From Nostoc sp. MG11 (GTDB taxonomy: Bacteria > Cyanobacteriota > Cyanobacteriia > Cyanobacteriales > Nostocaceae): 64,000 nt of DNA. How positions within the stretch are numbered: position 1 is the stretch's first letter; each line of letters opens with the position of its first letter. A model generated the notes under the pieces. That model ran no database searches and was not told the origin of the DNA. It saw only the letters and a list, made by a program, of their open reading frames with translations. Below, piece after piece: positions 7,525 to 41,604 of this stretch. The DNA lies in contig NZ_JACXXN010000029.1 of assembly GCF_014904695.1 (NCBI RefSeq), positions 1 through 64,000 of the forward strand. Reading direction: 5' to 3'. The translations under genes and the position numbers were made by a program.

Positions 7525-7559
7525 TCTCTCGTAAACAAGAAAGCTAACAGAACTCAGAT

Positions 7560-18383: not shown

Positions 18384-18387
18384 CTGT

Positions 18388-20772
18388 ATGACTGATCCTC
18401 ACAAAAGAGATTCTTTGTATGAATCTCTGAAGTTAACTTCTGGTGCGATCGCCTTTTTGACAGCCCTAACGCTAATATTTTCTAGTCTCTTACCTCTACC
18501 TGCTTGGGCGGACTATGGCGACAAATTGCCATTACCCCAAGCATCTTTTCAAGGCAAAATTGGCATTACTTACAAAGAATCCGAACCAGATTTCCCCAAA
18601 CCAATTAAGGCTCCAGAAAATGCACCAAACGTGTTGCTGGTGTTGCTTGATGATGTCGGTTTTGGACAAACCAGCACCTTTGGCGGTCTGATCGATACGC
18701 CTAATTTAGACCGTCTAGCAGCAAGAGGATTGCGTTATAACCAATTCCACACTACAGCACTCTGCTCTCCTACCAGAGCCGCATTGCTCACAGGACGCAA
18801 TCACCATTCTGTGAATACAGGTGTGGTTGAGGAGTTAGCCACAGGCTATCCAGGTTATACTGCGATTTTACCTAGAAGTGCGGCAACGATCGCTGAAGTA
18901 TTGCGAGACTATGGATATAACACAGCGGCCTTTGGCAAATGGCACAATACCCCAGACTATGAAACCAGTGCAGCAGGCCCATTCGATCGCTGGCCGACAG
19001 GTTTAGGTTTTGAGTACTTCTATGGATTTCTGGGCGGTGATACCAATCAATGGAGTCCAGCCTTGGTGGAAAATACCCAACATATTCAGAAACCAAGCGA
19101 TCGCCCTGATTATCACCTTACCCCCGATTTAGCAGACCATGCGATTAAGTGGATTCGCACCCAGCAAGCGATCGCTCCTGATAAACCCTTCTTTACCTAC
19201 TTTGCCACTGGCGCAACCCATGCCCCACACCATGCGCCCAAGGAATGGATCGACAAGTACAAGGGTAAATTTGATCAAGGTTGGGATAAATTACGCGAAG
19301 ACATCTTTGCTCGTCAGTTAGCCTTGGGTGTAATTCCCGCCGATACTAAGCTGACTCCTCGTCCGGCGGAACTCCCGGCTTGGGATTCCCTTACTCCCAC
19401 CGAGCAGAAAGTTTATGCGCGTCAGGCGGAAGTATTTGCAGGTTTCCTCAGCCATACCGATGCACAAATTGGTAGAGTCATTGACGCGATTGATCAACTT
19501 GGTGAATTAGATAACACCTTAGTCTTTTTCATCGCCGGGGATAATGGTGCGAGTGCTGAAGGCGGCTTAACAGGTAGTGTTAATGAATTAAAAGTTTTTA
19601 ATGACGTAGCAGAAAGTCCTCAAGAAGTTCTCGCGGCTTTAGATGATTTAGGTGGGCCAAAGACCTTCAATCATTTTCATGCAGCTTGGGCTTGGGCAGT
19701 GGATAGCCCCTTCCAATGGACAAAACAAATTGCTTCTCACTTCGGCGGAACTCGCAATGGTTTAGTTGTGGCTTGGGGCGATCGCATCAAAAATCGTGGT
19801 GGACTGCGGAGCCAATTCCATCATGTAATTGATATTACTCCCACCATTCTGGAAGCTGTGGGAATTGAAGAACCAGAGTTAGTCAACGGTGTAAAACAAC
19901 AACCCATCGAAGGTACTAGCCTTGTTTATAGCTTTGATGATCCTGCTGTACCATCCCATCACACAACCCAGTATTTTGAGATGTTTGGCAATCGTGGCAT
20001 TTATGATCGAGGTTGGGTAGCAGCCGCCCGTCATGGACGCTTACCTTGGGAGCGTGTCTCCAAAACCACCTTCGATGAAGATAATTGGGAACTATACGAT
20101 ATCACCAAAGACTTCAGTGAAGCCAACGATTTAGCCAAGCAGAACCCTGACAAGTTAGCGCAACTACAAAATCTATTTCTGAAGGAAGCAAAGAAATACA
20201 AAGTTCTGCCCTTGGATGATCGCTTACTTCAACGGTTTGATGTCAAAATCCGTTCCAACCTAATCACAGGACGCAATAGCTTTACTTATTACACATCTGT
20301 TGCAGGGATTCCCGAAGGTAGCGCTCCCAATATTAAGAATCGCTCCTTTAGCATTACTGCCGATGTGGATGCTGCCAAAGATGGTACTGAAGGCGTTTTA
20401 GTAACTCAAGGTGGACGTTTTGCGGGTTGGAGTTTCTTTTTGCAAGAAGGTAAACCCACCTTTGCTTACAACTTGTTAAATAGCGATCGCACAATCATTC
20501 AATCTTCTCAACCAATTGTGATCGGCAAATCCCAAATCAAATTTGACTTTACTTATGATGGCGGTGCTCCGGGAGCAGGCGGTACTGGTAAGCTCTTGAT
20601 CAATGATCAGCAGGTTGCCGAAGGCCGCATTGATAAAACTGTAGGCTACCGATTTGGTTTAGATGAAACCTTTGATGTTGGTCAAGATACTGGCACACCT
20701 GCGGTAGATACTTACCAAACACCCTTTGCATTCACCGGCAACTTACAGCAAGTCACCCTGGAATTGAAGTAA
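18388..20772 (+). CDS. Arylsulfatase, type I formylglycine-dependent, exported
   Basis: The 794-residue protein cleaves sulfate esters with a formylglycine nucleophile. A signal peptide ends near LPAWADYG (about residue 42). The metal site begins with [10 protein letters not shown]. The CxPxR motif is [15 protein letters not shown] (near residue 130), followed by AAFGKWHN and IAGDNGAS, all sulfatase landmarks. The size and C-terminal beta-rich extension match large bacterial arylsulfatases related to Pseudomonas AtsA. The FGE gene immediately upstream supplies maturation. It should release sulfate in the periplasm during sulfur limitation. Confidence 0.93.
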
Positions 20773-26502: not shown

Positions 26503-27558
26503 ATGTTCACTAAGTATTTACCAAATCGACTGATGAAGATTGTCAGCAGCCTTCTTCAAAATTATGAAATATCTAGAATTGGTATATTTGCCTTATTCTT
26601 TACCTGCGGGTTAAGTTTGACTCTTGTGATATCTGCGTGTTCTGCCAACAATACAGGTAACTCTGTAGCAACACAGACAGTAAATCAAGGTGTGGTAGTT
26701 CGTATCGGCTATCAAAAAGCAGCAACTATTCTCAGCGCTCTCAAAAACCGAGGCAATTTAGCGCAAACTTTAACGACTGCTGGTGCTTCGGTGACATGGG
26801 CAGAATTTCCCGCCGGCCCACCTATGCTAGAAGCAATGAACGCAGGTAGTATTGACTTTGGCTACACAGGAGAATCACCACCAATATTTGCCCAAGCCGC
26901 AGGTACTCCCTTGCTTTATGTTGCTTACGATCCTTGGAGTCCCAAAGCCGAAGCAATTGTTGTGCCGAAAAACTCACCAATTAAAAGTGTTGCTGACCTT
27001 AAGGGGAAAAGAGTAGCCTTTGCTAAAGGGTCAAACACTAACTATCTTGTTGTCAAAGCTATAGAAGTTGCCGGATTAAACTATAGTGACATTCAAGCAG
27101 CACATCTGACACCAGCAGATGCCCGTGCAGCATTTGAAGGCGGTAACGTTGATGCTTGGGCAATTTGGGACCCCTACCTAGCAGCAGTTGAACATGATCT
27201 AGATGTCAGGATATTAACAGATGCGACAAATTTAGCACCAAATCGGGGTTACTATCTTGCTCGTCAAGAGTTTGTCAATTCTCACCCAGATTTGTTGAAA
27301 ACCCTTTTAGATGAAATCAGCAAAATAGATAAATGGGCAGCAGGTAATCCACAGGAAGTTGCCAAGTTTCTAGAACCAGAATTAGGTATTAAAGCAGCAG
27401 CATTGCAAATTGCTGAAAAACGCCGGGAGTATGGCGTTTTACCGTTAACAGATGAAGTCATTACTCAGCAACAAAACATTGCTGATACTTTTCATAAAAT
27501 CAAGCTAGTTCCCAAGCAAATCCAGGTCAAAGAAATCGTTTGGAACGGTAATTCGTAA
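26503..27558 (+). CDS. ssuA: Aliphatic sulfonate-binding lipoprotein (SsuA-like), second copy
   Basis: The 351-residue protein has a signal with lipobox VISAC and the SsuA core: RIGYQKAA, GPPMLEAMNAGSIDFGYTGESPP, LKGKRVAFAKGSNTNYLVVK and WAIWDPYLAAVE. It ends KLVPKQIQVKEIVW, like the copy at 6207, but the two are clearly diverged and may bind different sulfonates. No permease or ATPase genes are near. It opens the series with the AprA-like flavoprotein gene 52 bp downstream. A second in-frame ATG at codon 11 is possible as start. Confidence 0.87.
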   Translation: MFTKYLPNRLMKIVSSLLQNYEISRIGIFALFFTCGLSLTLVISACSANNTGNSVATQTVNQGVVVRIGYQKAATILSALKNRGNLAQTLTTAGASVTWAEFPAGPPMLEAMNAGSIDFGYTGESPPIFAQAAGTPLLYVAYDPWSPKAEAIVVPKNSPIKSVADLKGKRVAFAKGSNTNYLVVKAIEVAGLNYSDIQAAHLTPADARAAFEGGNVDAWAIWDPYLAAVEHDLDVRILTDATNLAPNRGYYLARQEFVNSHPDLLKTLLDEISKIDKWAAGNPQEVAKFLEPELGIKAAALQIAEKRREYGVLPLTDEVITQQQNIADTFHKIKLVPKQIQVKEIVWNGNS

Positions 27559-27610: not shown

Positions 27611-29320
27611 ATGGACATCAATACCCAACAGATAAAAACTGATGTACTTGTCATCGGTGGCGGTACGGCCGGGACAATGGCTGGAATTAAAGCCAAACAA
27701 GCGAATCCAGATGCAGAGGTGCTGATCTTAGAAAAGGCTAACATCCGACGGAGTGGTGCGATCGCAATGGGTATGGATGGAGTGAATACCGCAGTTATTC
27801 CCGGCCATTCCACCCCAGAACAATACGTGCGCGAAATCACCCTTGCTAATGATGGGATTGTCAACCAAAAAGCCGTATATCAAACAGGCAAATTAGGTTA
27901 TGAAGTCATCCAAGAATTAGAAAGCTGGGGTGTGAAATTTCAAAAAGATGCCCAAGGCAACTATGACTTAAAACAAGTGCATCGTGTGGGTAAATATGTC
28001 TTACCCATGCCAGAAGGTAAAGACCTCAAAACAATTCTTACCCGCCAAGTCAAACGCCACAAAGTCAAAGTGACAAATCGCGTTATGGCAACCCGTGTCT
28101 TAGTCAAAGAAGGACGTGCTATTGGTGCGGTAGGATTTGATGTCAGAAACGGTGATTATATTGTCATTCAAGCCAAAGCCGTCATCCTTTGTACAGGTGC
28201 TTGTGGCAGATTAGGATTACCCGCTTCCGGTTATCTCTACGGCACTTATGAAAATCCTACCAATGCCGGAGATGGCTATTCAATGGCTTATCATGCAGGT
28301 GCAGAACTCAGCAATATTGAATGCTTTCAAGTTAATCCTTTAATCAAAGATTACAACGGCCCTGCCTGTGCTTATGTCGCCGGGCCTTTTGGCGCACATA
28401 CAGCCAACGCCGAAGGGAATCGCTTCATTAGCTGTGACTATTGGAGTGGTCAAATGATGTTGGAAATCTGGAAAGAATTAAATTCTGGAAAAGGGCCAGT
28501 CCAATTGAAAATGACCCACCTTGATGAAGATACAATCGCTGAAATTGAATCTATACTTTGGGCAAATGAACGACCAAGTAGAGAACGCTTTCATCAAGGT
28601 AGAAATGAAGATTACCGCACCCACGGCGTAGAGATGCACATTTCCGAAATAGGCTTATGTAGCGGTCATAGCGCCTCCGGTGTATGGGTAAATGAAAACG
28701 CTCAAACAACTGTCTCAGGTTTATATGCAGCCGGAGACATGGCTAGTGTTCCCCATAATTATATGATTGGAGCATTTGTTTTCGGTCGCATAGCCGGGAC
28801 TCATGCTATTGAATATATCGAAGATTTAAATTTTATCGAACCAGACACGGATTTTTTAGAAGCTGAAAAAGCCAGAATTTATGCACCATTAACACGTCCC
28901 AATGGTGTACCTCATACCCAGGTAGAATACAAATTAAGACGATTAGTTAATGATTATCTGCAACCACCAAAATCAGGCAATAAAATTGAGATTGGTTTGA
29001 AACATTTTGTTCAATATAAACAAACATTAGATTTAATGGGCGCTCGTGACCCCCATGAATTAATGCGTTCTCTGGAAGTGCATTTTATTCGTGACTGTGC
29101 AGAAATGGCAGCTAGAGCATCATTATATCGCCAAGAAACTCGTTGGGGACTTTATCATTATCGCTTAGATTATCCCGAAAAGAATGATGACGAATGGTTT
29201 TGCCATATCAATTTAAAGAAAGATGATTTAGGGCAAATGATATTGTTTAAGCGTCCTGTAGATCCTTATATTGTGGAAGTAGATACAGTTCAAGAATTTT
29301 ACAATATTGCAGTTAGGTAA
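27611..29320 (+). CDS. AprA-like FAD flavoprotein (fumarate reductase/APS reductase alpha family)
   Basis: The 569-residue protein has the dinucleotide motif VLVIGGGTAGTMAGIKAKQ at the N-terminus. RRSGAIAMGMDGVNT is the flavin-loop region that resembles AprA (adenylylsulfate reductase alpha) more than fumarate reductase. The later stretches ECFQVNPLIKDYNGPACAYV and RQETRWGLYHYRLDYP also follow the AprA pattern, and the fumarate reductase HPTG-type segment is absent. Dissimilatory AprA pairs with the iron-sulfur subunit AprB; a ferredoxin of that kind is encoded at 31841. The reaction may be oxidation or reduction of a sulfur-oxy species released from sulfonates; this is inference. The cytoplasm is the likely location. 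Confidence 0.75.
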   Translation: MDINTQQIKTDVLVIGGGTAGTMAGIKAKQANPDAEVLILEKANIRRSGAIAMGMDGVNTAVIPGHSTPEQYVREITLANDGIVNQKAVYQTGKLGYEVIQELESWGVKFQKDAQGNYDLKQVHRVGKYVLPMPEGKDLKTILTRQVKRHKVKVTNRVMATRVLVKEGRAIGAVGFDVRNGDYIVIQAKAVILCTGACGRLGLPASGYLYGTYENPTNAGDGYSMAYHAGAELSNIECFQVNPLIKDYNGPACAYVAGPFGAHTANAEGNRFISCDYWSGQMMLEIWKELNSGKGPVQLKMTHLDEDTIAEIESILWANERPSRERFHQGRNEDYRTHGVEMHISEIGLCSGHSASGVWVNENAQTTVSGLYAAGDMASVPHNYMIGAFVFGRIAGTHAIEYIEDLNFIEPDTDFLEAEKARIYAPLTRPNGVPHTQVEYKLRRLVNDYLQPPKSGNKIEIGLKHFVQYKQTLDLMGARDPHELMRSLEVHFIRDCAEMAARASLYRQETRWGLYHYRLDYPEKNDDEWFCHINLKKDDLGQMILFKRPVDPYIVEVDTVQEFYNIAVR

Positions 29321-29346
29321 AATGACATTTTCCTAAAATAATAAAA

Positions 29347-30042
29347 ATGGGTTATACAGCGATAATTTTTGATCTAGATAATACACTGTTTAATTTTGAA
29401 CTATGTGAACGCCAAGCTATTCTTGGAGCGCTGGAAGCTTGTGGAATATATTTAGATCTACATGGAATAAATGAAACTACTTTTATTCAAGTATATGAAA
29501 CTTATAACTCCAAGTATTGGAGACAGCGAGAAACTTTTTCTCCTGGTGAATTGATAGAGATGTCTTATCAAAGTACACTTGCTCAATTAGATATAAAAAC
29601 AGATAAAATCAGCAACCTTAGCCAAAGTTTTTGGCATATTTTTAATCATTCAGCTGTAATGGAACCTGATGTAAATGAAGTACTAACTGTTCTTGCGCGT
29701 AATTATTGTTTAGCTGTCATCACCAACGGTTTTGTGTCAGCACAACTACCAAGAATGCAAGCTGCGGGAATTGACCATTTTTTTGAGGAAATTGTAGTTT
29801 CTGAAGCAATTAGTTTTGCTAAACCATCTCCTGAAATATTTCATTATGCGTTATCGAAATTAGATTTAACATCAGCAGAAGTCCTTTACGTAGGAGATTC
29901 TCTCACTCATGACTATGCAGGAGCAATGCAAGTTAATATTGATTTTTGCTATTACAACCGAAAAAACCAGAATTTAATACAAGAAGTGCAACCAAAATTT
30001 ATGATAAATGAACTATTAAAATTGATAAAATTGCTTAACTAA
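29347..30042 (+). CDS. HAD-family hydrolase (YjjG-like)
   Basis: The 231-residue protein has IIFDLDNTLFNFE (nucleophile D, but DLDNT in place of DGT), AVITNGF as motif II, the lysine in FAKPSPEIF and LYVGDSLTHDYAGA as motif IV. This matches pyrimidine-nucleotidase YjjG-type HADs that clean up non-canonical nucleotides. It begins 26 bp after the flavoprotein and starts the AT-rich cassette that separates that gene from its ferredoxin. Confidence 0.85.
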   Translation: MGYTAIIFDLDNTLFNFELCERQAILGALEACGIYLDLHGINETTFIQVYETYNSKYWRQRETFSPGELIEMSYQSTLAQLDIKTDKISNLSQSFWHIFNHSAVMEPDVNEVLTVLARNYCLAVITNGFVSAQLPRMQAAGIDHFFEEIVVSEAISFAKPSPEIFHYALSKLDLTSAEVLYVGDSLTHDYAGAMQVNIDFCYYNRKNQNLIQEVQPKFMINELLKLIKLLN

Positions 30043-30106
30043 CAGATTTTTTATTTATTCATTTAAAGTTCAATCTTAAATTAATTTAAGTGATATTATA
30101 ATAAAT

Positions 30107-30889
30107 ATGTCTATTTATAATTCAATTGGTCAACAATACTCAAAAACTCGCGTTCCTGATATTCGCATTGTCAATAAATTAATTGAATTACTCAATTTAC
30201 CCAAAGGTAGCATTATCGTTGATATTGGTGCTGGTACTGGTGGTTACAGCCTAACATTAGCTAACCAAGGATTTTTTATTAATGCTATTGAACCTTCTGT
30301 AGTGATGCAAAAACAGGCAATAGAACATCCACAAGTTAAGTGGTTCACTGGCTATGCAGAAAATTTACCTCTACCAGATAAGTCTGTTGATGGCGTTGTA
30401 AGTATCCTAGCAATTCATCACTTTACTAATCTCGAAAAAGCGTTTCAAGAAATGCAACGAATTATTAGAGATGGGATAATAGTTTTACTAAGTTTTGATA
30501 TTAGATTAGCTCAGAAGATATGGCTTTATGATTATTTTCCCTTTTTGTGGGAAGATGCGTTACGATTTTTACCACTTAATGAACAGATAAACTTAATTCA
30601 GAATCAGACTAAAAAGCGTGTTGAAGCCATACCCCTTTTGTTACCATACGATTTATCTGATTTATTTGCAGCAGCAGCCTGGAGGCGACCAGAGTTATAT
30701 CTTCAAACAGAAGTACGTGCGGGAATATCATCTTTTGCATTAGCAAATCAAGATTTAATTGAGCAAGGAGTACAATTACTTACAGCAGATTTAAGTAGTG
30801 GAGAATGGACGAAAAAATATGGCAATATTCACAATTTGACAGAGATTGATCTAGGCTATCGTTTTATCCGTGCAATGCTGGATAACTAA
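30107..30889 (+). CDS. Class I SAM-dependent methyltransferase
   Basis: The 260-residue protein has VDIGAGTGGYSLTLANQG (motif I, near residue 38), an acidic AIEPSVVMQKQA and DKSVDGVVSILAIHHF (motif II/III region). It is a Methyltransf_11-like enzyme of unknown substrate. It has no close family resemblance in wording to the one at 15472, but it takes the same place in a HAD-methyltransferase-GNAT order. Confidence 0.85.
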   Translation: MSIYNSIGQQYSKTRVPDIRIVNKLIELLNLPKGSIIVDIGAGTGGYSLTLANQGFFINAIEPSVVMQKQAIEHPQVKWFTGYAENLPLPDKSVDGVVSILAIHHFTNLEKAFQEMQRIIRDGIIVLLSFDIRLAQKIWLYDYFPFLWEDALRFLPLNEQINLIQNQTKKRVEAIPLLLPYDLSDLFAAAAWRRPELYLQTEVRAGISSFALANQDLIEQGVQLLTADLSSGEWTKKYGNIHNLTEIDLGYRFIRAMLDN

Positions 30890-30913
30890 ATAATTGTAAT
30901 TTAAAATTAAATC

Positions 30914-31384
30914 ATGACAAATAAAGTTACTGTAGGTGAAAAAATTAAAATTAGACAAGCTGAGATTAAAGATGTAGAGAGAATTGCTAGCCTTTGCAAA
31001 CAACTTGAATATTCTGTGACAAATGAACAAATAGAACAGCGCCTTACTAAAATTAAAAATGACGATGCTTATATTGTGTATGTTGCTACTCTAGAAGATG
31101 AATATGTAATTGGTTGGGCGCACGCTCATATTTGTGACTCAATAGTTATTCCGACTCCAGCAATTCTTTTAGGATTAGTTGTAGATAAAGATTATCGTCA
31201 CAATGGAATAGGACGTATTTTAATGCAGCAAATTGAACAGTGGGCTTTTCTGGTTGGATGTGAGGGTGTTCTGTTACGTTCTAATGTTAAACGTCATGAG
31301 GCTCACTCGTTTTATGAAAAAATTGGTTATACCAATATTAAACAGTCAGTGACATTTTATAAAAAATTGCAACCTCAAGAGTAA
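30914..31384 (+). CDS. GNAT-family N-acetyltransferase
   Basis: The 156-residue protein contains IRQAEIKDVERIASLCKQL at the start and the acetyl-CoA loop DYRHNGIGRILMQQIEQW, and ends SFYEKIGYTNIKQ. The general pattern resembles AAC(6')-type or small-amine GNATs. It follows the methyltransferase by 24 bp. Its stop codon TAA is directly followed by the Fos-like reading frame. Confidence 0.85.
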   Translation: MTNKVTVGEKIKIRQAEIKDVERIASLCKQLEYSVTNEQIEQRLTKIKNDDAYIVYVATLEDEYVIGWAHAHICDSIVIPTPAILLGLVVDKDYRHNGIGRILMQQIEQWAFLVGCEGVLLRSNVKRHEAHSFYEKIGYTNIKQSVTFYKKLQPQE

Positions 31385-31807
31385 ATAATTTCAAAAATTA
31401 TTACTGGAATTAACCACATTACTTTATCTTTCAGAGACTTAGAGGAATCTATTAATTTTTGTACCAATGTGCTAGATTTTCGCTTACTAGCAAAATGGAT
31501 GAAAGGTGCTTATCTTTCGGTTGGTGATATTTGGTTGGCATTAATTTTAGACGAGAAAGTTCGAGAAAGTCCTATACCTGAATATACCCATATTGGTCTG
31601 ACTGTTTCTATTGAAGATTTTCCTATTCTTAGCCAACGCATTCAGCAATCAGGAGTAAAAATTTGGCAAAAAAATAAAAGCGAAGGTGCTTCTTTATATT
31701 TCCTTGATCCAAACGATCATAAACTGGAAATTTATGCTTCTGATTTAAACACCAGAATAAAAAGTGCTAGAACATCTCCGTGGGAAGGGTTAGAATTTTT
31801 CATTTAA
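31385..31807 (+). CDS. Fosfomycin-resistance-type (FosA/FosX-like) glyoxalase-fold protein
   Basis: The coding homology begins right after the GNAT stop: ISKIITGINHITLSFRDLEE. The metal ligands of Fos/glyoxalase enzymes are all present: His in GINHITL, His in PEYTHIGLTV and Glu in HKLEIYA. The family adds glutathione, another thiol or water to epoxides such as fosfomycin. No ATG, GTG or TTG stands before the first ligand; the frame opens with ATA at 31385 (perhaps a mutated ATG). The next usual start, GTG 31469, gives a 112-residue product that lacks the first histidine. So it uses a rare start codon, or has recently lost its start. Confidence 0.7.
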   Translation: MISKIITGINHITLSFRDLEESINFCTNVLDFRLLAKWMKGAYLSVGDIWLALILDEKVRESPIPEYTHIGLTVSIEDFPILSQRIQQSGVKIWQKNKSEGASLYFLDPNDHKLEIYASDLNTRIKSARTSPWEGLEFFI

Positions 31808-31840
31808 AGTTTATTAATTGAATTAGGGAGTAATAAATGT

Positions 31841-32068
31841 ATGGCTTTAATCACACAAAGAATAGATGTTCCTGTCATCGTTGACGAATCAAAATGTTTA
31901 GAGAAATGCACAGCTTGTATTGAAGTTTGTCCCCTTGATGTATTAGCAAAAAATCCAGAAACAGGGAAAGCATATATGAAATATGATGAGTGCTGGTTTT
32001 GTCTACCTTGTGAAAAAGAATGTCCCACCAATGCAATTACAGTACAAATTCCCTTTTTATTGCGATAG
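31841..32068 (+). CDS. 2[4Fe-4S] ferredoxin, AprB-like
   Basis: The 75-residue protein has two four-cysteine clusters: CLEKCTACIEVCPLDVL and CWFCLPCEKECPTNAI. The first cluster has three residues between its first two cysteines. The spacing and the ending resemble the AprB iron-sulfur subunit that partners with AprA, although it lacks the AprB C-terminal tail. It is the likely electron partner of the flavoprotein at 27611. It is followed closely by the HEAT-repeat gene. Confidence 0.85.
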   Translation: MALITQRIDVPVIVDESKCLEKCTACIEVCPLDVLAKNPETGKAYMKYDECWFCLPCEKECPTNAITVQIPFLLR

Positions 32069-32104
32069 TTTTTCTCTTATCCTCTGTGACTCTGTGGTAA
32101 AATA

Positions 32105-33067
32105 ATGAATGATGACCTAAAAAATTGGCTAGAAATGCTGCGATCGCCTGAAGTAAATGACCGTTTAGTAGCTGTCAAAACTTTACAACATTTAGGCGAT
32201 GAAGAAACAACAGATGCTTTAATTATTGCTTTGAAAGATGAAAATATCGCTGTACAAAAAATAGCCATATCTGCCCTTTGGGAAATTGCCGATCCTGTGG
32301 CAATTCCTGCTTTAATTGAATGCTTAACTTCAGCAGATTCAGATATTCGCGCTGAAGCTGCATCAGCATTAAATGAATTGGTGACACAAGATGAGTTGTT
32401 ACTTTTATTAGATAAGTTACAAATTAATGATGTCAATATACAAATAAATATTTTAGTACTGTTGCGAAAGATTCATGATATTCAATCATTACCGTATATT
32501 TTACCCTTTTTAGAATCAAAAAATTATGAGTTAAGAGAAGCAGCAATTACTACAATTCGATATATAAATCAAATAGAAAAATGTCCACAAGCTTTAAATT
32601 TAATCTTTGACCAAGAACCAATCGTCCGTCGTGCTACTGCTTTAACTTTAGGACATTTGCAAGATACACAAGTAATTACAATACTTGCTCAAGCACTTAC
32701 AAATGATAGTGACTGGCAAGTTCGCCGGAATGCAGCTAAATCTCTGGCTATTCATGAAAATCAGCAAGCAACTTCAGCATTAGAAATAGCTTTAGGTGAT
32801 GAACATTGGCAAGTACGCAAATCAGCAGCACAAGCTTTGCAAAAAATCCCAGATATTCAAGTTATACCGAGATTAATTCAAGCATTAACAGATGAATATG
32901 CAGATGTTCGCAAAGAAGCAGTAATCGCACTTGGGAATTTAGCTCATCCTGATGTTATTAACCCGCTGCAACAAGCTTTAGACGATCCTGACAAAGAAGT
33001 GTCCATCCAAGCGCAACATGCAATTCGGAAGATTCAAACAGATAGAATAGTCTCAAGGGAGCAGTAA
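32105..33067 (+). CDS. HEAT-repeat protein
   Basis: The 320-residue protein consists of about ten HEAT/PBS-lyase-like repeats of some 30 residues (for example DRLVAVKTLQHLGDEETTDA, WQVRKSAAQALQKIPD, ADVRKEAVIALGNLAHPD). It has no catalytic signature and is probably a scaffold. In phycobilisome biology similar proteins are lyases (CpcE/F), but the place between ferredoxin and Mrp genes points to a partner of the sulfur-redox proteins or of iron-sulfur assembly. It is 36 bp from the ferredoxin stop. Confidence 0.8.
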   Translation: MNDDLKNWLEMLRSPEVNDRLVAVKTLQHLGDEETTDALIIALKDENIAVQKIAISALWEIADPVAIPALIECLTSADSDIRAEAASALNELVTQDELLLLLDKLQINDVNIQINILVLLRKIHDIQSLPYILPFLESKNYELREAAITTIRYINQIEKCPQALNLIFDQEPIVRRATALTLGHLQDTQVITILAQALTNDSDWQVRRNAAKSLAIHENQQATSALEIALGDEHWQVRKSAAQALQKIPDIQVIPRLIQALTDEYADVRKEAVIALGNLAHPDVINPLQQALDDPDKEVSIQAQHAIRKIQTDRIVSREQ

Positions 33068-33086
33068 ATAACTAAGGGAAAGCGTA

Positions 33087-33848
33087 ATGGACAATCCATT
33101 TCCTGGAATGAACCCGTATTTGGAACAGCCTGAACTTTGGCATCAAGTTCACAATCGTTTGATTGTAGCGATCGCTGATGACCTAACTCCCCAAATCGCC
33201 CCTAAATACCGAGTTTCCATTGAAGAGCGAGTTTACACTAGTGTAGATGATATCTTACTCGTAGGAATTGCTGATATAGCAGTTGCTAAACGTAACACTA
33301 CAGATACCAGCACAACTTTGACGGCTGCAAAACTTACCGAACCCAGTAAAGTGAAAGTTCCTATACCGGAACAAGTAACTGAAAGATTTTTAGAAGTGCG
33401 AGCAACTCAAAGTAAAGAAGTAGTTGCGGTGATAGAAATACTTTCCCCTAAAAATAAACGTTCCAAAGAAGGTAGAGCCGCTTACGAAAACAAACGACAG
33501 AAAATTTTAGCTTCTGCAACCAATTTGGTAGAAATTGATCTCTTAAGACAAGGAGAGTCAATGCCTGTTTTAGGAGCAACAGCCACAGATTATAGTATCT
33601 TGGTTAGTCGCAGCTACAATAGACCTGATGCAGATTTATATACTTTTGATTTAAAAAACCCAATTCCTGTTTTTCCTATACCTTTGCGTGAGGGAGAACC
33701 TGAACCTATAGTTGACTTGCAAAGCTTATTAAATGAAGTTTACGAACGTGCTAGATTTGACTTGGCAATTGATTATTCACAACCTTTAAAGATAGTGCGA
33801 TCGCCCGAAGAAGAAGCTTGGGTGAGAGAAGTTTTGCAGAGGATCTAA
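33087..33848 (+). CDS. DUF4058 family protein
   Basis: The 253-residue protein begins MDNPFPGMNPYLEQPELWHQ, the signature of DUF4058, a family very common in cyanobacteria and planctomycetes and of unknown function. The middle has VVAVIEILSPKNKRSKEGR with KRQKILASATNLVEIDLLR, which resembles the core of restriction-endonuclease-like folds (E-I-L-S-P-x-N-K). A nuclease role is only a thought. It is in line with the HEAT and Mrp genes (gaps of 19 and 65 bp). Confidence 0.8.
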   Translation: MDNPFPGMNPYLEQPELWHQVHNRLIVAIADDLTPQIAPKYRVSIEERVYTSVDDILLVGIADIAVAKRNTTDTSTTLTAAKLTEPSKVKVPIPEQVTERFLEVRATQSKEVVAVIEILSPKNKRSKEGRAAYENKRQKILASATNLVEIDLLRQGESMPVLGATATDYSILVSRSYNRPDADLYTFDLKNPIPVFPIPLREGEPEPIVDLQSLLNEVYERARFDLAIDYSQPLKIVRSPEEEAWVREVLQRI

Positions 33849-33913
33849 ATCAGAGCGATCGCTTTTAGTATACTGCAACTAGCAAATTTCTGATCCCTAA
33901 GCTTCTCTTAACC

Positions 33914-34975
33914 ATGCCTAACCACCAATCCCCCTTTCAGCATCCAGAAGATCACGTAAAACCAGATACTAATTTATATCAGCAAGAAGTCGTCCAACTA
34001 CTCAAACAAATCATTGAACCTATCTTAAAAAATGACATCGTTAGTTTGGGAATGGTACGAAACTTACGCATAATTGATGACTATATTTACTTGCGTTTAT
34101 ATATCGGTTCTCATCAGCACCAATTACAGCCAGAAATTGAATCTGTATTATCATCTTTAATTTGGTGTAAAAAAACTTATATTCAAATTTGTACAATTCC
34201 CGGTGTTAAAACAACTCTAGGAATCTCTAGTGGTAAAGGTGGTGTAGGCAAATCCACAACAGCCGTTAATATCGCCGCAGCTTTAAAATTACAAGGTGCA
34301 AAAGTAGGACTATTAGATGCTGATGTTTATGGCCCCAATGTTCCTCAGATGTTGGGTTTAGGACAAGCTGATATTCAAGTGATTAATACTCCCACAGGTG
34401 ATAAGTTTTTACCTCTAGAAGCTCAAGGAATAAAAATAATGTCGGTGGGTTTACTTGCAGAAGTAAATCGTCCTTTGGCATGGCGGGGGCCTGTATTGCA
34501 TAAAATTATCACGCAATTTTTGCAAGATGTGGAATGGGGTGAATTAGATTATTTATTGATAGATTTACCTCCCGGTACAGGTGATGCTCAAATTACAATT
34601 ATCCAAGAAAGCCCAATTTGTGGAGTCATTTTAGTGACAACTCCTCAACAAGTGGCTGTTGCAGATGTACGACGTAATATATATATGTTTCGCCAAGTGG
34701 GTGTTCCTGTGCTTGGCATCATTGAAAATATGAGCTATTTAATCTGCGGTGATTGTGGTTCACGCACACCGATTTTTGGCAGTGGTGGCGGTGAACAACT
34801 GGCCGCAGAATTACTTGCGCCTCTGTTGGGACAAATTCCCATTGATCCCCGCATTTGTAGCGGTGGAGATACTGGAAATACGATCGCAATTAGTGAACAA
34901 GCTTCCCCAGCCAGTGAGGTTTTTAGAAAAATTGCAATATCACTTAATGCAACTTTTAAAAACCAGGCTGCGTAG
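33914..34975 (+). CDS. mrp: Mrp/NBP35-type iron-sulfur carrier ATPase
   Basis: The 353-residue protein has an N-terminal MIP18-like domain (residues 20-95) and a P-loop ATPase with the deviant Walker A SSGKGGVGKSTTAVN (near residue 105), DADVYGPNVPQ and LIDLPPGTGD. CGDCGSRTPIFG supplies the CxxC pair that holds a bridging 4Fe-4S cluster. Mrp proteins deliver iron-sulfur clusters. Here it ends the gene series with ferredoxin and flavoprotein, so it may mature them. The window also has no other Mrp copy to compare; a housekeeping one would be expected elsewhere. Confidence 0.88.
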   Translation: MPNHQSPFQHPEDHVKPDTNLYQQEVVQLLKQIIEPILKNDIVSLGMVRNLRIIDDYIYLRLYIGSHQHQLQPEIESVLSSLIWCKKTYIQICTIPGVKTTLGISSGKGGVGKSTTAVNIAAALKLQGAKVGLLDADVYGPNVPQMLGLGQADIQVINTPTGDKFLPLEAQGIKIMSVGLLAEVNRPLAWRGPVLHKIITQFLQDVEWGELDYLLIDLPPGTGDAQITIIQESPICGVILVTTPQQVAVADVRRNIYMFRQVGVPVLGIIENMSYLICGDCGSRTPIFGSGGGEQLAAELLAPLLGQIPIDPRICSGGDTGNTIAISEQASPASEVFRKIAISLNATFKNQAA

Positions 34976-35126: not shown

Positions 35127-35760
35127 TTAATCATCCCAAAGCCCATGAAATTTGGTAGATGCAAGTTCGGTGTAACGAACAGTATGCTGAATATTTTTAT
35201 GCCCCAAATAACTCTGAATTGTTCGGGTATCAATCCCTCGATTCGCCAGATAATAACCTGTTCCATGCCGCAGCATATGAGCATGAATAGGGAAAGGCAA
35301 ACCAGCTAATTCACCAGCCCGCTCAACAATGTCGGCGATCGTATCATGTGCTAACGGGCCAAGTCGAGAAGACTGGAAAATATAGGGACTAGCAAGATAA
35401 TCTCGTTGCAGATGACGTCGATGTGCGAATCTCCAAACCTGAAAGTGGTTGAACCGAGGGTGTTCCTTTTTTGACTCGCTTCACGTAAATTGTGCCACCA
35501 TTCCAATCTATTTGCTCCCACCGCAAAGATGCCACCTCTGCCACTTGCAATCCGTGACGGTAGATTAGCAAAATTAGGGTTGAGTCTCGGTGAGCATGGC
35601 GGCCCTTCGATTTTTTGATAGCTGATCGCATCAACTCAACTTCTTCTGGTAACAAATGTTCTCTAGTCCTGACCTCGGAGTATTTGCGAAAGTTAGGCGA
35701 TTGACGTTCTGGTTTTTTGGTTTTACCAACTTTCAGTGGTTGGACGGTTTGCGGTGTCAT
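35127..35760 (-). pseudogene. Tyrosine recombinase/integrase, frameshifted
   Basis: The region encodes a small (about 210-residue) tyrosine recombinase. The first part (to about 35430) has IYRHGLQVAEVASLRWEQID with the first catalytic arginine. After a one-base shift, the other frame continues HLQRDYLASPYIFQSSRLG and has HAHMLRHGTGYYLANRG (HxLRH box) and SYLGHKNIQHTVRYTE (GH and the tyrosine). All catalytic residues survive apart from the frameshift. It lies just inside the left inverted repeat. A piece of a close relative is at 26249. Confidence 0.75.
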
Positions 35761-35912
35761 GACTCAACCCCCTGAAAACCTTGGGGTGTATGAGCTGATT
35801 TTACCAACTTACGCTCCAAAGTTGGGTTTGTACATAGACATAAAAAACAGTCCAACATTTTACGGTGTATCGTCACTTAAAGGTAACTTAAATTACTTTT
35901 TATACTAATAAC

Positions 35913-36749
35913 TTAAGCGACTTGAGAGACTTCTTGAATCGGCTGGCTATCTACTCTAAAACCAGGATACCATTGCTGGAATTTGCTCTCTAACTCTTCA
36001 TTGAGAACCAACATTCTCACCTGGAGCAGAAGATGAACACCTTTAGGAGTCCAGCGCATCTGCTGTTTTTTGACAAATCGTTTGCTAATAACTTGATTAA
36101 CCGTTGATTCTACGAATCCAGTAGCAATAGCTTCACCATTTCGCCAACGTTCTCCATAATTGGGGATATAAGACCCATTGTTGGCAATGTAGGTTTCAAA
36201 CTCCCTTACCATCTTAAACAGTTTTTTTAGCTCTATTCGGCTATTACCATCAAAAATCACGATTTCTAGGTCGTCCACAAGATCTTTTACCAGTTGCAAT
36301 GCTCTGAACACGTTTCCATACCACAAGTACCACTTAATTCGTTCCAACTCTTTGGGTATGTCTGTATCTAGCTCGGTATCTTTTTTGCTAAGTCCTTTTG
36401 CAGTCTGACTCATTACTGTCAGTCGCATAGTGATATGAAACCAATCCAGGATATATTCTGCGTTAGGATTGAGATAAAGCTGTAGTTCGCGTATCTTCTC
36501 ATCACCGTCTGAGAGAAAAGTTACTTGTTGATTCATCTGCATCCCAAGAGATTTCAACACCTCAAAGATCCGACGTTGGGGTTTGGTATCGTAAGAATAA
36601 ACTCCCCCAAATTGCTTGGATGTACCGTCTGCTTTTATACTCTTACCAACGATAACTTCAAAATTACCTTTGGAAAGCGATTTTTTGTCGTAGGAACGAA
36701 CATATCCGCCATCCATTCCCAATACCAAGGGTAAATCAGGTCGGGGCAA
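35913..36749 (-). CDS. ISKra4-family transposase, catalytic part (ORF B)
   Basis: This 278-codon frame holds the DDE core: LGMDGGYVRSYD, YILDWFHITMRL and GFVESTVNQVISKRFVKKQQ, as in ISKra4-family transposases. It has no good start codon of its own (TTG at 36749) and overlaps ORF A by 14 bp in the +1 frame. A +1 frameshift near the ORF A ending (GCC CCG ACC TGA) would make the full protein of about 455 residues. Confidence 0.75.
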   Translation of the reverse strand: MPRPDLPLVLGMDGGYVRSYDKKSLSKGNFEVIVGKSIKADGTSKQFGGVYSYDTKPQRRIFEVLKSLGMQMNQQVTFLSDGDEKIRELQLYLNPNAEYILDWFHITMRLTVMSQTAKGLSKKDTELDTDIPKELERIKWYLWYGNVFRALQLVKDLVDDLEIVIFDGNSRIELKKLFKMVREFETYIANNGSYIPNYGERWRNGEAIATGFVESTVNQVISKRFVKKQQMRWTPKGVHLLLQVRMLVLNEELESKFQQWYPGFRVDSQPIQEVSQVA

Positions 36750-37287
36750 TTCCTCCCAATTCGTCTTCTAAGCGTTGACCAATTGTGTGTAAGTTATTCC
36801 GTATCGCTGTAGTGTTTATTTCACCTTCTATTGGTAATAATTCTTGTAATAGTTTCACAGATAGTCCGTAAGACATCAAAGACCCATACTTAGATTCCAG
36901 ATACAATAGTTCTCTTGAGGTGCGTTCTGGTATTAAGTTTGCTACTGGATTAAAACTACGGGTTGGTTGTTCTTGACACGGGCAGTGAAATAGTCGTTGG
37001 CATTGGAGATGCAACTTGCCAAACAATGTGCGGTATACAATTGTACGCTTGTCTTTATGCAACAGTTTCTGGCTACAGTGCAAACATGATTTCTGTTGAA
37101 GAGAATACTCTGCTACCTGTTGTTCGGCTAGGGTGCGTTGGATGCTTTGTAGTAATGTTTTGGCTTCTGCTAGTTTTAGTCCCAAGTTTTCTGGCTGTAA
37201 GGAATCACGCGAAATCTGCATAATTTCTTGCACAACTTGGGTATCTCCATTATCTGACTCCACAACTATTTGGATTTTGACTTTCAC
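36736..37287 (-). CDS. ISKra4-family transposase, N-terminal part (ORF A)
   Basis: The 183-codon frame contains a zinc-ribbon-like region (KSCLHCSQKLLHKDKRTI, then CQRLFHCPCQEQ) and a helical DNA-binding part (KYGSLMSYGLSVKLLQELLP). This is the usual first half of ISKra4 transposases. It starts at GTG 37287, overlapping the stop of the upstream ORF-3-like gene (GTGA), so translation is coupled. Confidence 0.72.
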   Translation of the reverse strand: MKVKIQIVVESDNGDTQVVQEIMQISRDSLQPENLGLKLAEAKTLLQSIQRTLAEQQVAEYSLQQKSCLHCSQKLLHKDKRTIVYRTLFGKLHLQCQRLFHCPCQEQPTRSFNPVANLIPERTSRELLYLESKYGSLMSYGLSVKLLQELLPIEGEINTTAIRNNLHTIGQRLEDELGGIAPT

Positions 37288-37922
37288 ACTATTTCCTGCT
37301 CAAATAACATTTCTTTATCCCCAGCCACATATTGCTGTAACCGTTGGTTGACTTTTTGGCGGTCAAAATGCTCAACCATTAACCATTGACGTAGTTCGTA
37401 TATTTCTTCAATATTGCCAGGTATATCACCTTCTTCTACAATTTCACTTAACCGAGAAGCTATATATCTTACTGAGTATTCCTGTTTTTGTGCCATGAAC
37501 TCCCACACTCCACCACAGTCTTCCGGGGGGCAAGCGCGTTTACCATCAATACATACTGGATAAACGCAATTTGATTTTGGAGTGAGAATTGCTTCGACCC
37601 GAATTTGATGCTGCCAATTATCACCGAAGTCATATTCGTATAAAAAACGCTCTCGCATTCGCCAGCCAAAATCTGATAGTTTGACAACTTTAGGATCGTC
37701 AGAAAACCACATTCCCCCAATTTGAGCAATCCCGTAATCCTTACCGTGGATTACAAAGCGATGTAGATGGGAATCAGTCCATCCCATTACTATCTGGATG
37801 ATGTAGTGCAAATCGGCGATCGTGCTGTCGCTGCGGATTTTTATCCTACGCCAAATCATGGGACTAATGCCCAGGATAAAAATATGAAGCTGGTAGATGA
37901 CAAGTTGCTCAGAATCTGGCAT
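37284..37922 (-). CDS. Plasmid pRiA4b ORF-3-like protein
   Basis: The 212-residue protein matches the pRiA4b ORF-3 family: YQLHIFILGISPMIWRRIKI at the start, LHYIIQIVMGWTDSHLHRF, FLYEYDFGDNWQHQI and a CPPEDCGGVWEF motif. The function is unknown; genes of this family often travel with cyanobacterial ISKra4 elements. It is the first gene of the mobile unit, 27 bp inside the right inverted repeat. Confidence 0.8.
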   Translation of the reverse strand: MPDSEQLVIYQLHIFILGISPMIWRRIKIRSDSTIADLHYIIQIVMGWTDSHLHRFVIHGKDYGIAQIGGMWFSDDPKVVKLSDFGWRMRERFLYEYDFGDNWQHQIRVEAILTPKSNCVYPVCIDGKRACPPEDCGGVWEFMAQKQEYSVRYIASRLSEIVEEGDIPGNIEEIYELRQWLMVEHFDRQKVNQRLQQYVAGDKEMLFEQEIV

Positions 37923-38657: not shown

Positions 38658-41546
38658 CTACGCCATTTGCCTAGCGATTAACTGGGCAAATAGCCCCTCA
38701 ACAGTAGCTAGTTCCTTAAAAGTTCCTTGTTGTACAACCCGGCCTCCTTGGAGTACATAGATACGGTGAGCGTTACGGATAGTGCTTAGTCGGTGAGCGA
38801 TCGCAATTCTGGTAACTTGTAACTTATCTAAACTTTCGCTGACAATCGTCTGGGTTCTATTATCGAGCGCACTAGTAGCCTCATCGAATAACAAAATGCG
38901 GGGTTTTAAGGCTAGGGCGCGAGCAATCAATAACCGTTGTCGTTGTCCCCCAGAAAGATTGCCACCTCCTTCACTCACGACAGTATGCATTTGCATTGGC
39001 ATGTTTGCAATATCATCAGCAAAACCAGATATGCGAGCAGCTTCCCAAGCTTCATCTAGGGTAATCTGAGCGCCACCAGCAATATTATCGAAAATCGAAG
39101 CGGCTGTCAGTTGACCACCCTGTAAAACAACACCCAACTGTCGGCGCACAGCGTCTACATTTAAACCAGACAAATCTTGCCCGTCATAGTAAACACTACC
39201 AGCTTCGGGAGTTTCAAATCCTAGTAGTAATCGGAATATTGTCGATTTACCACTTCCAGATCCCCCCACAAAAGCAATGAACTCCCCAGGCTCCGCAGAG
39301 ATACTCACATTATCCAACGTCAGCGTTCCATCACTGCGGTAGCGAAATGTCACATGATCTACAACAATTTTGCCAATGAGCTTACCTGGATCGGCTTTGC
39401 TGCGATCCACTTCCGGTATGGTTGCCAAAATTGGCTGGGTGCGTTGCCACTGCGGGACAACTTGCAAAACATCGGTAACTGTGTTGCTTAGGTCTGTAGC
39501 TCCCCTAATAAAGTTGCCAAAGGCTGCGTTGAAAGCTAGGAAAGTACCAAGAGATAATCCCATACCTCCTGAAGTCTGAGATTCTTCAAACAAACTAATG
39601 GTAAACCAAAAAAGTATTCCAGAAGTTAGTGTGGGCATTAAGGTATTGAAAAGTGCCACAAAGTCTTCAACTTGCTGTATGCTGAGTTCAAGTTTGACTT
39701 GCCGAGAGTAGTTTTTACTCCAAGAAGCGAAGGCGCGATCCTCAGCCCCAGCAACATGTAGTTTAGAAATTCCGTTGATTAACTGTACCGTCTGTCCAAA
39801 AATATCCCCTTGCAATTCCAACAGTGGACGCACCTTACGAAGGAGGAGTACACCAGAGAGGCTAGTAACAGCGATCGCAACTACTGCAATTGCAACTGCA
39901 ACTAAAGCTAATTTGAAGTTGTAGTAAAACAACTGCCCCAAGTAAAACAGTGCAAACAAACTGGTGATGAGATTTATCAGGGTTTTGCCACTGAGTTGGC
40001 GACGAATCGTAGTAATTGATGATACGCGAGACTGAAGGTCGCCTGTTGTATACTGACGAAAAAAGGATACAGGAAGATTAAGCAACCGATCCCACACAGC
40101 TGCTTGAGTGGAAGCGTCAGAAGTTGTTTCCATTCGCAGGATAGCAAAACCTTGAGTTAGCTGAAATAAGGCTGTCCCCAAAGCAGCAACCAGTAGCCCT
40201 AATCCAACTTGCAGCAGTAGTCCCCTGTCGCTATCTGGAATTGCGTTGTCTATGAGAATTGCAGTAGCTTGGGGTGTGAGCATTCCTAGTAATGTTACGG
40301 TAACACCAGTAAATAAAATAGCCAGCAGTTCTCTTCCTTGTCCTTTAAATGCGAATTGGAGTAGATCTAAAGCTGTAAGTGCCTTATCGGGCAAAGACCG
40401 ATAAAACGTATAAGCAACGGGTGCAAGTGCCGCTGCTCTACTATCATCTACTCTGAGGCGAGTTTGCTCAACTGGGTTAAATATCTCATAGCTAGTTGCA
40501 GATATCGGCAACAGTGCAACTGGTCGGTTGTCCTGCTCGGTATAGGCGACTAAAGCACCAGAATCCTTCTCCCACCAATTATCCCGCAATAGCACCCGCC
40601 GCATCCGAATGCGCGAAGCCCGAACAATTGCCTCCAAAGGCTCTTTAACCCGCTTGAGGTTCTCTGAGCGAGCCGGAGGGCAAATTTTTACCCCCGAAGC
40701 CCTGCCAACTGCACCAGCAGCGACTAATAAAGGTGTGCCTTCAAGGAAAAAGTCCCCATCTTGATAACTCAGAGTTGATGCTAGCTCTCCCAAAGCCTCC
40801 GCTGTAACTTGGCGGTTGAGACGTTGGCGATCACGTAACCGTTGTAGTTCATCCTCCGTTTCTTGTCGATCTAAAAGGTCAATACAATGTAGAAATTGAG
40901 TATGAAATTGCGACAATCCTAAGAGCAGAGTATCTAGATTGCGGATTTCTGAAGTAGCTAGAGTGGTAAGTTGAACTCCCTCGACAGCTTTTAGCCACAT
41001 TTGATCACTGAGGCAAAAAGTTCCTGCTGCACTTGTCAAAGTCAAATCCTCAAACCCCAAAAAGCAAACAGTCCCTTGCTGAAGCTGTACCCAACAAGCA
41101 ACACCCGCTTCCGGTTGGAAAGTCTGACCAGCGATCAGAGAAAATCGTACCTGTTCAGAAGCCCTTACCTGAATTGCTGGTGTGGCAAATTGGGATGTAT
41201 TACCTACTTGCTTGAGCCAATTTTCTACCCAAGCGATCACTCTTACATCTGCATTAGCTACTAACTCACTGAAACATTTATAATACAGTTGTAGTATTCT
41301 TGTATCTCCAACTGGTACTGCCAAAATCTGGCGCTGCCGATTGCTAGAACTGACAGCAGTTCCAAAAAGTGCCTCCCCCGTACTACAACTGCATAAATAA
41401 CGACGAGTACCTTCGATAACACCATCTTCAACTGTGACAGCAAACAATGCGATCGAACCAGACTGAATTACCCAAACTTTCTGAGGATCGTCCAACAGTA
41501 TCGGCTCATTACCCGTAACTTGGTAAAGTTGTCCTTGTAACATCAT
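38658..41546 (-). CDS. NHLP peptide-export ABC transporter, permease/ATPase subunit
   Basis: The 962-residue protein has a long N-terminal region with a cupin/cyclic-nucleotide-like fold, then six membrane helices (about 400-700) and an ATPase domain. FVGGSGSGKSTIFRLLLG is Walker A, NLSGGQRQRLLIARALAL the signature and ILLFDEATSALD Walker B. There is no C39 peptidase domain. This matches the second ABC protein of NHLP (nitrile-hydratase-leader peptide) export systems, which works with the peptidase-containing partner encoded upstream. It is the last gene of the minus-strand array. Confidence 0.88.
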   Translation of the reverse strand: MMLQGQLYQVTGNEPILLDDPQKVWVIQSGSIALFAVTVEDGVIEGTRRYLCSCSTGEALFGTAVSSSNRQRQILAVPVGDTRILQLYYKCFSELVANADVRVIAWVENWLKQVGNTSQFATPAIQVRASEQVRFSLIAGQTFQPEAGVACWVQLQQGTVCFLGFEDLTLTSAAGTFCLSDQMWLKAVEGVQLTTLATSEIRNLDTLLLGLSQFHTQFLHCIDLLDRQETEDELQRLRDRQRLNRQVTAEALGELASTLSYQDGDFFLEGTPLLVAAGAVGRASGVKICPPARSENLKRVKEPLEAIVRASRIRMRRVLLRDNWWEKDSGALVAYTEQDNRPVALLPISATSYEIFNPVEQTRLRVDDSRAAALAPVAYTFYRSLPDKALTALDLLQFAFKGQGRELLAILFTGVTVTLLGMLTPQATAILIDNAIPDSDRGLLLQVGLGLLVAALGTALFQLTQGFAILRMETTSDASTQAAVWDRLLNLPVSFFRQYTTGDLQSRVSSITTIRRQLSGKTLINLITSLFALFYLGQLFYYNFKLALVAVAIAVVAIAVTSLSGVLLLRKVRPLLELQGDIFGQTVQLINGISKLHVAGAEDRAFASWSKNYSRQVKLELSIQQVEDFVALFNTLMPTLTSGILFWFTISLFEESQTSGGMGLSLGTFLAFNAAFGNFIRGATDLSNTVTDVLQVVPQWQRTQPILATIPEVDRSKADPGKLIGKIVVDHVTFRYRSDGTLTLDNVSISAEPGEFIAFVGGSGSGKSTIFRLLLGFETPEAGSVYYDGQDLSGLNVDAVRRQLGVVLQGGQLTAASIFDNIAGGAQITLDEAWEAARISGFADDIANMPMQMHTVVSEGGGNLSGGQRQRLLIARALALKPRILLFDEATSALDNRTQTIVSESLDKLQVTRIAIAHRLSTIRNAHRIYVLQGGRVVQQGTFKELATVEGLFAQLIARQMA

Positions 41547-41604
41547 AATTATTAGTTATTAGTTGTTAGTTATCGCCATTTCTCCCCCATCTCCCCCTGC
41601 TCTC

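Follow-up and report, generated by a model that had tools for sequence, protein, structure and literature searches.

Introduction

The assimilatory desulfonation known in aerobes uses oxygenases (SsuD, TauD). The closest described relatives of the system presented here are instead enzymes of inorganic sulfur: adenosine 5'-phosphosulfate (APS) reductase, AprAB, and the 3'-phosphoadenosine 5'-phosphosulfate (PAPS) reductase of M. thermolithotrophicus, each a flavoprotein (alpha) joined to a small ferredoxin (beta). For the PAPS reductase, its authors propose that Trp42 of the beta chain takes part in electron transfer (PMC10322725). A comparable make-up is found in asfRABC of P. putida S-313, which comprises a reductase/ferredoxin chain, a binding protein, an ATP-binding cassette (ABC) transporter and a LysR regulator, and is required for the use of arylsulfonates (PMC4267179, PMC9694294). 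Here, we describe a related flavoprotein-ferredoxin pair from the cyanobacterium Nostoc sp. MG11. It lies in a 64,000-nucleotide stretch (contig NZ_JACXXN010000029.1, positions 1 to 64,000; "the window" throughout), downstream of an SsuA-type gene and together with genes for a HEAT-repeat protein and an Mrp iron-sulfur (Fe-S) carrier.

We propose that these genes encode a dedicated flavin and Fe-S enzyme system that would free sulfite from an imported sulfonate for sulfur scavenging, a reading whose chances we judge to be about even. The narrower idea that an AprAB-type enzyme carries out reductive, oxygen-independent C-S cleavage of sulfonates to sulfite in aerobes, including oxygenic phototrophs, is possible but doubtful. 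Both draw on kinship, a residue pattern and gene association, as read from sequences. That the flavoprotein itself may act on the imported sulfonate is suggested by its kinship to sulfo-transfer enzymes, the tryptophan kept in its ferredoxin partner and the sulfonate-type uptake gene beside it. Sulfite-resistance genes, Fe-S maturation partners, electron donors at some loci and the lack of a constant oxygenase point the same way. Literature searches aimed at the gene set or at asf, in which subscription journals were thinly covered, returned no description that we recognised, and PMC7661421, PMC8557817, PMC3506598 and PMC8305402 have no bearing on the set.

Kinship of the flavoprotein

The earlier note on this DNA regarded the flavoprotein as AprA-like rather than fumarate-reductase-like. 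At the level of families, this agrees with the model scores, the nearest solved structure (8a8o) and two trees. The PAPS-reductase-type model NF005331 scores 326 bits (cut-off 557) and the AprA model TIGR02061 195.2 bits (cut-off 641.75). Both exceed all listed Sdh, Frd and NadB models, excepting the protein's own PRK08275 and PRK13800 models, which bear the name fumarate reductase/succinate dehydrogenase flavoprotein subunit, a name with no specific tested function behind it. Sequence and fold both give 8a8o, the alpha chain of the M. thermolithotrophicus PAPS reductase, as the best PDB chain. In the fold search, fumarate reductases trail it by no more than 3.5 Z, and the fold alone is therefore not decisive. 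The structure model used, a single one built from 57 sequences (the window and 56 of 80 loci) with a mean predicted local distance difference test score (pLDDT) of 64, is fit for fold ranking only.

In the first tree (59 rows; 7 of the 66 collected were left out), the window family forms one clade with support of 100/99, comprising a cyanobacterial part (99/96), a proteobacterial part (98/100) and one actinobacterial member. AprA and the PAPS reductases group together (100/100), a third group, which we call apr2, is likewise coherent (100/99), and three other flavoproteins of the Nostoc genome fall outside (99/96). The second tree has 37 rows, 33 from the first and four flavoproteins from genome G420, a Cupriavidus discussed below. 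Here, the window family is again one clade (100/100) and five Sdh/NadB-type rows separate with 100/97, with the window flavoprotein outside them. One protein first filed with the Sdh/NadB-type rows, from locus L003, pairs at 100/100 with the G420 row that we take as AsfA. Both trees gave long-branch warnings. Phylogeny, which the earlier note had named as a check, thus places the flavoprotein outside Sdh, Frd and NadB in both trees, and at the sequence level the window flavoprotein is kin to AprA and the PAPS reductases rather than to those families.

Active site of the flavoprotein

We aligned 41 family members (19 cyanobacterial, 21 proteobacterial and one actinobacterial), taking the residue numbers and APS-site roles of A. 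fulgidus AprA as our assumed reference. In all 41, Arg265 of AprA is replaced by Leu (Leu244 in the window), Trp234 by Tyr (Tyr213) and Gly274 by Cys (Cys253). Gln145 is Val, Glu141 is Lys or Arg and Leu278 is Ala or Thr, again throughout; Asn74 is kept in every member. The AprA pattern is intact in the five AprA rows aligned, and the PAPS-reductase pattern (Arg265, Trp234, Ser145) is common to a homologue from Ilyobacter and to seven rows from f38, presumably Vampirovibrionia. The AprA, PAPS-reductase and window-family rows inspected have His353 in common, and it is invariant in 57/57 family sequences. Equally invariant (57/57) is an Asn, Asn242 in the window, at the place of the substrate His in the HPTG motif of SdhA. 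The family thus retains the AprA fold and some of its polar groups, but its pocket differs.

These replacements bear directly on what the pair can be. A true AprAB, as the strict form of the earlier note's AprA/AprB-like pair, is not supported, since the Arg, Trp and Gln of the APS site are replaced in 41/41 members and the scores lie far below the AprA and PAPS-reductase cut-offs. An assimilatory APS/PAPS reductase of the M. thermolithotrophicus type might be expected from the nearest solved relative, which is that very enzyme and which illustrates that the fold can serve assimilation (PMC10322725). The substrate-site residues nevertheless differ in all 41 members, while the seven f38 and the Ilyobacter homologues keep the pattern; NF005331 remains below its cut-off, and an ordinary PAPS reductase of the CysH type is encoded in the Nostoc genome (345 bits to TIGR02057, cut-off 254). 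We therefore discard this identity on the residues and the presence of an ordinary CysH, and regard it as extremely unlikely; the handling of APS that had been suggested is likewise unsupported.

Sulfite-resistance and export genes adjoin some cyanobacterial loci, as they would if the pair worked in the oxidising direction and detoxified sulfite released by other desulfonating enzymes. Most of the compared AprA substrate-site residues are lost, however, with Asn74 kept, and the ferredoxin gene fdxA (FdxA) and ferredoxin-NADP reductase (FNR) genes near some sets suggest a supply of electrons instead. We consider an oxidative role very unlikely.

The ferredoxin, HEAT and Mrp partners

The window ferredoxin carries the motifs Cx3Cx2Cx3CP and CWFCx2Cx3CP. 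Its Trp52 corresponds in the alignment to the Trp of the CW in D. gigas AprB, and a comparison of motifs matches it to Trp42 in the beta chain of the PAPS reductase. This AprB-type Trp beside the second cluster occurs in 121/121 ferredoxins recovered from 129 loci, which bears out the AprB-like partner of the earlier note; the remaining eight loci (L042, four of f38 and three of apr2) gave no ferredoxin at the threshold. The 121 include three apr2 partners (L222, L223, L225), so the Trp marks a wider group and not the window family alone. Within the Nostoc genome, CWxC is found only in the window ferredoxin among 16 Fer4_7 rows, some of which overlap. The AprB model TIGR02060 gives it 37.3 bits (cut-off 135.65).

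In the actinomycete Tsukamurella, flavoprotein and HEAT protein are a single chain of 893 residues that scores 1568 bits to PRK13800 (NF010374). In line with the Mrp of its own that was proposed for the set, the window Mrp is a second copy, 51% identical to the other Mrp of the genome on contig C227.

Gene order and distribution

All the genes named in the earlier note (SsuA, flavoprotein, 2[4Fe-4S] ferredoxin, HEAT, DUF4058 and Mrp) are present on the + strand. Their order holds as well, except that four genes intervene before the ferredoxin and that DUF4058 is inconstant. The run reads as follows.

26503-27558, + strand: SsuA-type lipoprotein, sulfonate ABC substrate-binding protein (TIGR01728, 247.8 bits, cut-off 163.5)
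27611-29320, + strand: AprA-related flavin adenine dinucleotide (FAD) flavoprotein, 569 residues, alpha-like subunit (NCBIfam NF006131/PRK08275, 1025 bits, cut-off 587)
29347-30042, + strand: HAD hydrolase, passenger gene (Pfam HAD_2)
30107-30889, + strand: S-adenosylmethionine (SAM) methyltransferase, passenger gene (Pfam Methyltransf_11)
30914-31384, + strand: GNAT acetyltransferase, passenger gene (Pfam Acetyltransf_1)
31385-31807, + strand: FosA-like VOC protein, passenger gene (NCBIfam Fos models, every listed one below its cut-off)
31841-32068, + strand: 2[4Fe-4S] ferredoxin, 75 residues, AprB-like, eight Cys, CWxC with Trp52 (by motif and alignment)
32105-33067, + strand: HEAT-repeat protein, core member (matches PRK13800, a fused family, in its HEAT half at E 3.2e-27)
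33087-33848, + strand: DUF4058 protein, inconstant member, adjoining the set in some loci only (PF13267, 329 bits)
33914-34975, + strand: Mrp/NBP35 Fe-S carrier ATPase, second copy of the genome (PF10609, 317 bits)

The eight intergenic gaps measured between SsuA and Mrp span 19 to 65 bases, and the run is likely a single transcript. Reading through the open reading frames (ORFs) of the window revealed no gene for an ABC permease or ATPase next to the SsuA-type gene, and an Rfam scan of the window gave no RNA family at the gathering score.

For comparison, we collected 20 cyanobacterial loci (the window, 16 from a search of the phylum and three plasmids) and 106 others (the best 80 named, 14 more and 12 plasmid loci), which are best matches and not independent. 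Neighbours were counted as tblastn matches at E 1e-5 over 45% of the query, so the counts depend on the query. Ferredoxin, HEAT and Mrp genes are each found at 19/20 cyanobacterial loci, which argues that the gene order is not due to chance; the only locus lacking the ferredoxin, L042, lies at a contig end, and the only one lacking Mrp is L037. An SsuA-type gene stands near the flavoprotein on the same strand in 11/20. At the 106 other loci we count 106 ferredoxin, 101 HEAT, 79 ABC binding-protein and 81 DUF971 genes. The presumed Fe-S partner differs, being Mrp at cyanobacterial loci and DUF971 at most proteobacterial ones. Downstream of the set, M. radiotolerans has ABC genes, FdxA and a ferredoxin-NADP reductase. 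A further 14 loci (PAPS reductase, apr2, G420, and the Asf-like and SsuD loci of the Nostoc genome itself) served as comparison, with counts taken over 13: ferredoxin matched at six and TauD at one, and the HEAT, Mrp, DUF971 and binding-protein queries had no match at these 13. The fourteenth, L288, has SsuA, ABC and TauD genes and no flavoprotein match.

The HAD, methyltransferase, GNAT and FosA-like genes (29347-31807) separate the flavoprotein from the ferredoxin in the window. The same four gene types stand at this place in L051, the first three of them in L031, and GNAT also in L034; gene content in this interval differs among Nostocaceae. Both genes are present at 19 cyanobacterial loci; nine of these have them less than 200 bases apart, and the rest have them 0.56 to 5.6 kb apart with varied content in between. 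The FosA-like frame (31385-31807) has no ATG before its first listed start, which is an internal GTG at 31469, and the annotated homologue in L051 is longer by about 24 residues at its N-terminus.

At E 1e-60, 24 of the 386 genomes of the phylum match. Seventeen of these, the Nostoc genome included, do so at 83-100% identity and belong to seven family codes. The other seven are f38 genomes at 31-33% identity and are PAPS-reductase-like. This small-genome lineage of the same phylum (L022-L028, L047-L050) has a ferredoxin adjoining the flavoprotein in the four loci scanned. At E 1e-40, matches were obtained in 41/119 Pseudomonas genomes, 29/300 Burkholderiales genomes (18 of them at 59-67% identity) and 11/40 genomes of the genus of a Cupriavidus, each sample including a genome already known to match. 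Fifty-two plasmid records match, 48 at 60% identity or more, among them rhizobia and two actinomycetes. The set is therefore not confined to oxygenic phototrophs, as its occurrence in Pseudomonas, Burkholderiales and on rhizobial and actinomycete plasmids demonstrates. Flavoprotein, ferredoxin and HEAT genes recur together in Cyanobacteria and Proteobacteria, so the co-occurrence that the earlier note wished to see checked is not lacking. Patchy presence and plasmid carriage suggest lateral spread, though the cyanobacterial copies form one clade.

Sulfur context and the imported compound

Five binding proteins were scanned, and each scored best against an aliphatic-sulfonate model; those of the window and L033 exceed a cut-off, and those of L052, L054 and L290 fall below it. 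At seven of the 20 cyanobacterial loci, an NMT1-type ABC binding protein is accompanied by a LysR-NMT1 regulator encoded divergently. YeiH (6/20) and TauE (4/20) genes all fall within these seven. YeiH drives sulfite resistance in Salmonella (PMC12880088). In L052 (6664-8676), the divergent LysR of this set has an extra NMT1-like stretch, a Pfam match below cut-off, which is perhaps an internal sensor of the imported compound.

The imported substrate might also be a compound other than a sulfonate, its sulfur neighbours being incidental. NMT1/SsuA-type binding proteins form a broad group, regulators of the GntR-UTRA and Crp types accompany the set in other phyla, and one apr2 locus, judged by eye, stands beside a tricarboxylate-type transporter. 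Set against this are the agreement of the five binding proteins on aliphatic-sulfonate models, YeiH at six of the seven cyanobacterial loci that carry NMT1-type ABC genes, and the presence of a sulfatase and TauD in other parts of the window. A non-sulfonate substrate seems unlikely to us. Of the sulfonate processing proposed earlier, the link with sulfonate uptake stands, whereas processing itself is suggested by the neighbours only.

The window as a whole is rich in organosulfur genes. A Rieske oxygenase gene lies at 817-1785, an NMT1-type binding protein and TauD at 6207-8591, and a sulfatase preceded by a formylglycine-type factor at 17289-20772. Elsewhere, the genome encodes a true SsuD (620 bits, cut-off 518) near SsuA-, TauD- and ABC-type genes.

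Comparison with asf

The genome paper of C. metallidurans assigns AsfA/AsfB to Rmet_4334/5 (PMC2864759). We took G420 to be strain CH34, where the Asf names are annotation, and made the comparison with the pair of this strain. Six TauD genes on the 2.58-Mb contig of G420 match, read as a circle, the spacing of six CH34 tauD numbers. By interpolation from these anchors, Rmet_4334 would lie near 923 kb; at 927.9-929.9 kb there is a pair of genes for a flavoprotein and a ferredoxin. No LysR gene was found beside it in the ORFs read, though the paper writes asfRAB. Queried with the window flavoprotein, G420 gave no match at E 1e-40 and four weak ones, this pair among them. The putative AsfA is 25% identical to the window flavoprotein over 411 columns and sits in a separate clade; it is 48% identical over 525 columns to a 549-residue protein on contig C217 of the Nostoc genome. 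The ferredoxins of both the G420 and the C217 pair have CQTC, not CWxC. Judging by this putative CH34 pair, we rejected AsfA as the identity of the window flavoprotein. The Nostoc genome holds an Asf-like pair as well as the window system, two different systems by sequence, and asfA surveys by polymerase chain reaction could in principle have amplified either lineage.

The C217 pair (L287:2207-4210) lies beside a glutathione transferase and a 2-oxoglutarate oxygenase and is a cyanobacterial arylsulfonate candidate. The apr2 clade (L221-L226; L172-L177, L183), a flavoprotein-ferredoxin group of Burkholderiales with Thr or Val at the place of the AprA Arg, was also considered as AsfA. Six of its loci were scanned with the genes of the set and one, L221, was read gene by gene; its neighbours, judged by eye, are a TctABC-type transporter and a regulator of the AraC type.

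AsfA/AsfB raise a further alternative, namely that the window pair is an electron-transfer chain feeding a separate, unlinked desulfonating oxygenase, the role given to them in the literature. The make-up is shared with asf (flavoprotein, ferredoxin, binding protein, ABC transporter; PMC4267179), FdxA and FNR genes occur near some loci, and TauD-type, Rieske and SsuD-type oxygenases are available in the genome or the window. The broad Pfam model Pyr_redox_2 also scores above its cut-off (36 bits against 26) at the FAD end of the flavoprotein. On the other hand, FAD_binding_2/SdhA-type proteins are not known to take up electrons directly from NAD(P)H. No oxygenase was found constant at the loci among the genes that could be named, with TauD-type genes at 4/20 cyanobacterial and 7/106 other loci. 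The putative CH34 Asf is, moreover, a different lineage with a different ferredoxin motif. A role in feeding an oxygenase is, in our view, unlikely.

A proposed route for desulfonation

We return to the reading that the pair desulfonates an imported compound. In the scheme that we infer, which extends to complex formation, electron route, substrate class, direction, sulfite product and the roles of HEAT, Mrp and DUF971, an SsuA-type ABC system would import the sulfonate. The flavoprotein and the small ferredoxin would form an alpha-beta enzyme resembling AprAB and PAPS reductase. Electrons may pass from the ferredoxin clusters via the conserved Trp to FAD, which would act on the sulfur of the sulfonate, probably by way of an N5-sulfite adduct, and release sulfite. 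The sulfite would be assimilated, or exported in some strains. The HEAT protein may be a scaffold or assembly partner, and Mrp (DUF971 in Proteobacteria) would deliver Fe-S clusters.

Several points weigh against this scheme. No family member with a tested function was found, and breaking a C-S bond is more demanding than breaking the S-O-P link of APS or PAPS. Because Arg265 of AprA, which we take to hold the sulfo group, is a Leu here, the AprA mechanism is not transferable unchanged. The active-site region of the structure model is poor (mean pLDDT 64). The first tree leaves the branching order of the window family, AprA with the PAPS reductases, and apr2 undecided, and the second joins the window clade to AprA and the PAPS reductases at 85/66 only. 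As regards the neighbours, NMT1/SsuA-type proteins also bind non-sulfur ligands, and the GntR/UTRA regulator, with GntR in 99/106 other loci, is uninformative on sulfur. Electron donors are near a minority of these loci (FdxA 13/106, FNR 3/106), and sulfite exporters are scarce at the proteobacterial ones (TauE 1/106, YeiH 1/106).

Other features of the window

Directly 3' of Mrp, integrase-like and transposase-like frames at 35127-37922 look by eye like the remains of a mobile element. Two peptide-exporter-like ABC proteins and an HlyD-like protein (38658-45334), with a small leader-like protein at 53810-54175, resemble by eye a peptide export set of the Nif11/NHLP type.

Comparison with known systems

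If the proposal is true, a ferredoxin-fed AprAB-like enzyme would represent a different desulfonation chemistry from the SsuD and TauD oxygenases. The pair is little studied, is not rare, and is currently filed under a fumarate reductase name. It widens the repertoire of the AprA-type fold, in which AprA, the PAPS reductases, the window clade and a fourth clade are set apart by a few active-site residues and lend themselves to direct comparison.

With AprAB (1jnr, 2fja, 3gyx), the window family shares the branch of the superfamily, an RSGA motif where SdhA has RSHT, and a CWxC ferredoxin; it differs in the replacement of Arg265, Trp234, Glu141, Gln145 and Leu278. In contrast to the M. thermolithotrophicus PAPS reductase (8a8o), it has lost the substrate-site Arg and Trp and the Ser at AprA position 145. 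Its ferredoxin in the window has 75 residues where the PAPS reductase chain has 104, and the window pair adjoins genes for sulfonate uptake. The likeness to AsfA/AsfB lies in the combination of a flavoprotein with a small ferredoxin in sulfonate use, in the company of a substrate-binding protein and ABC partners.

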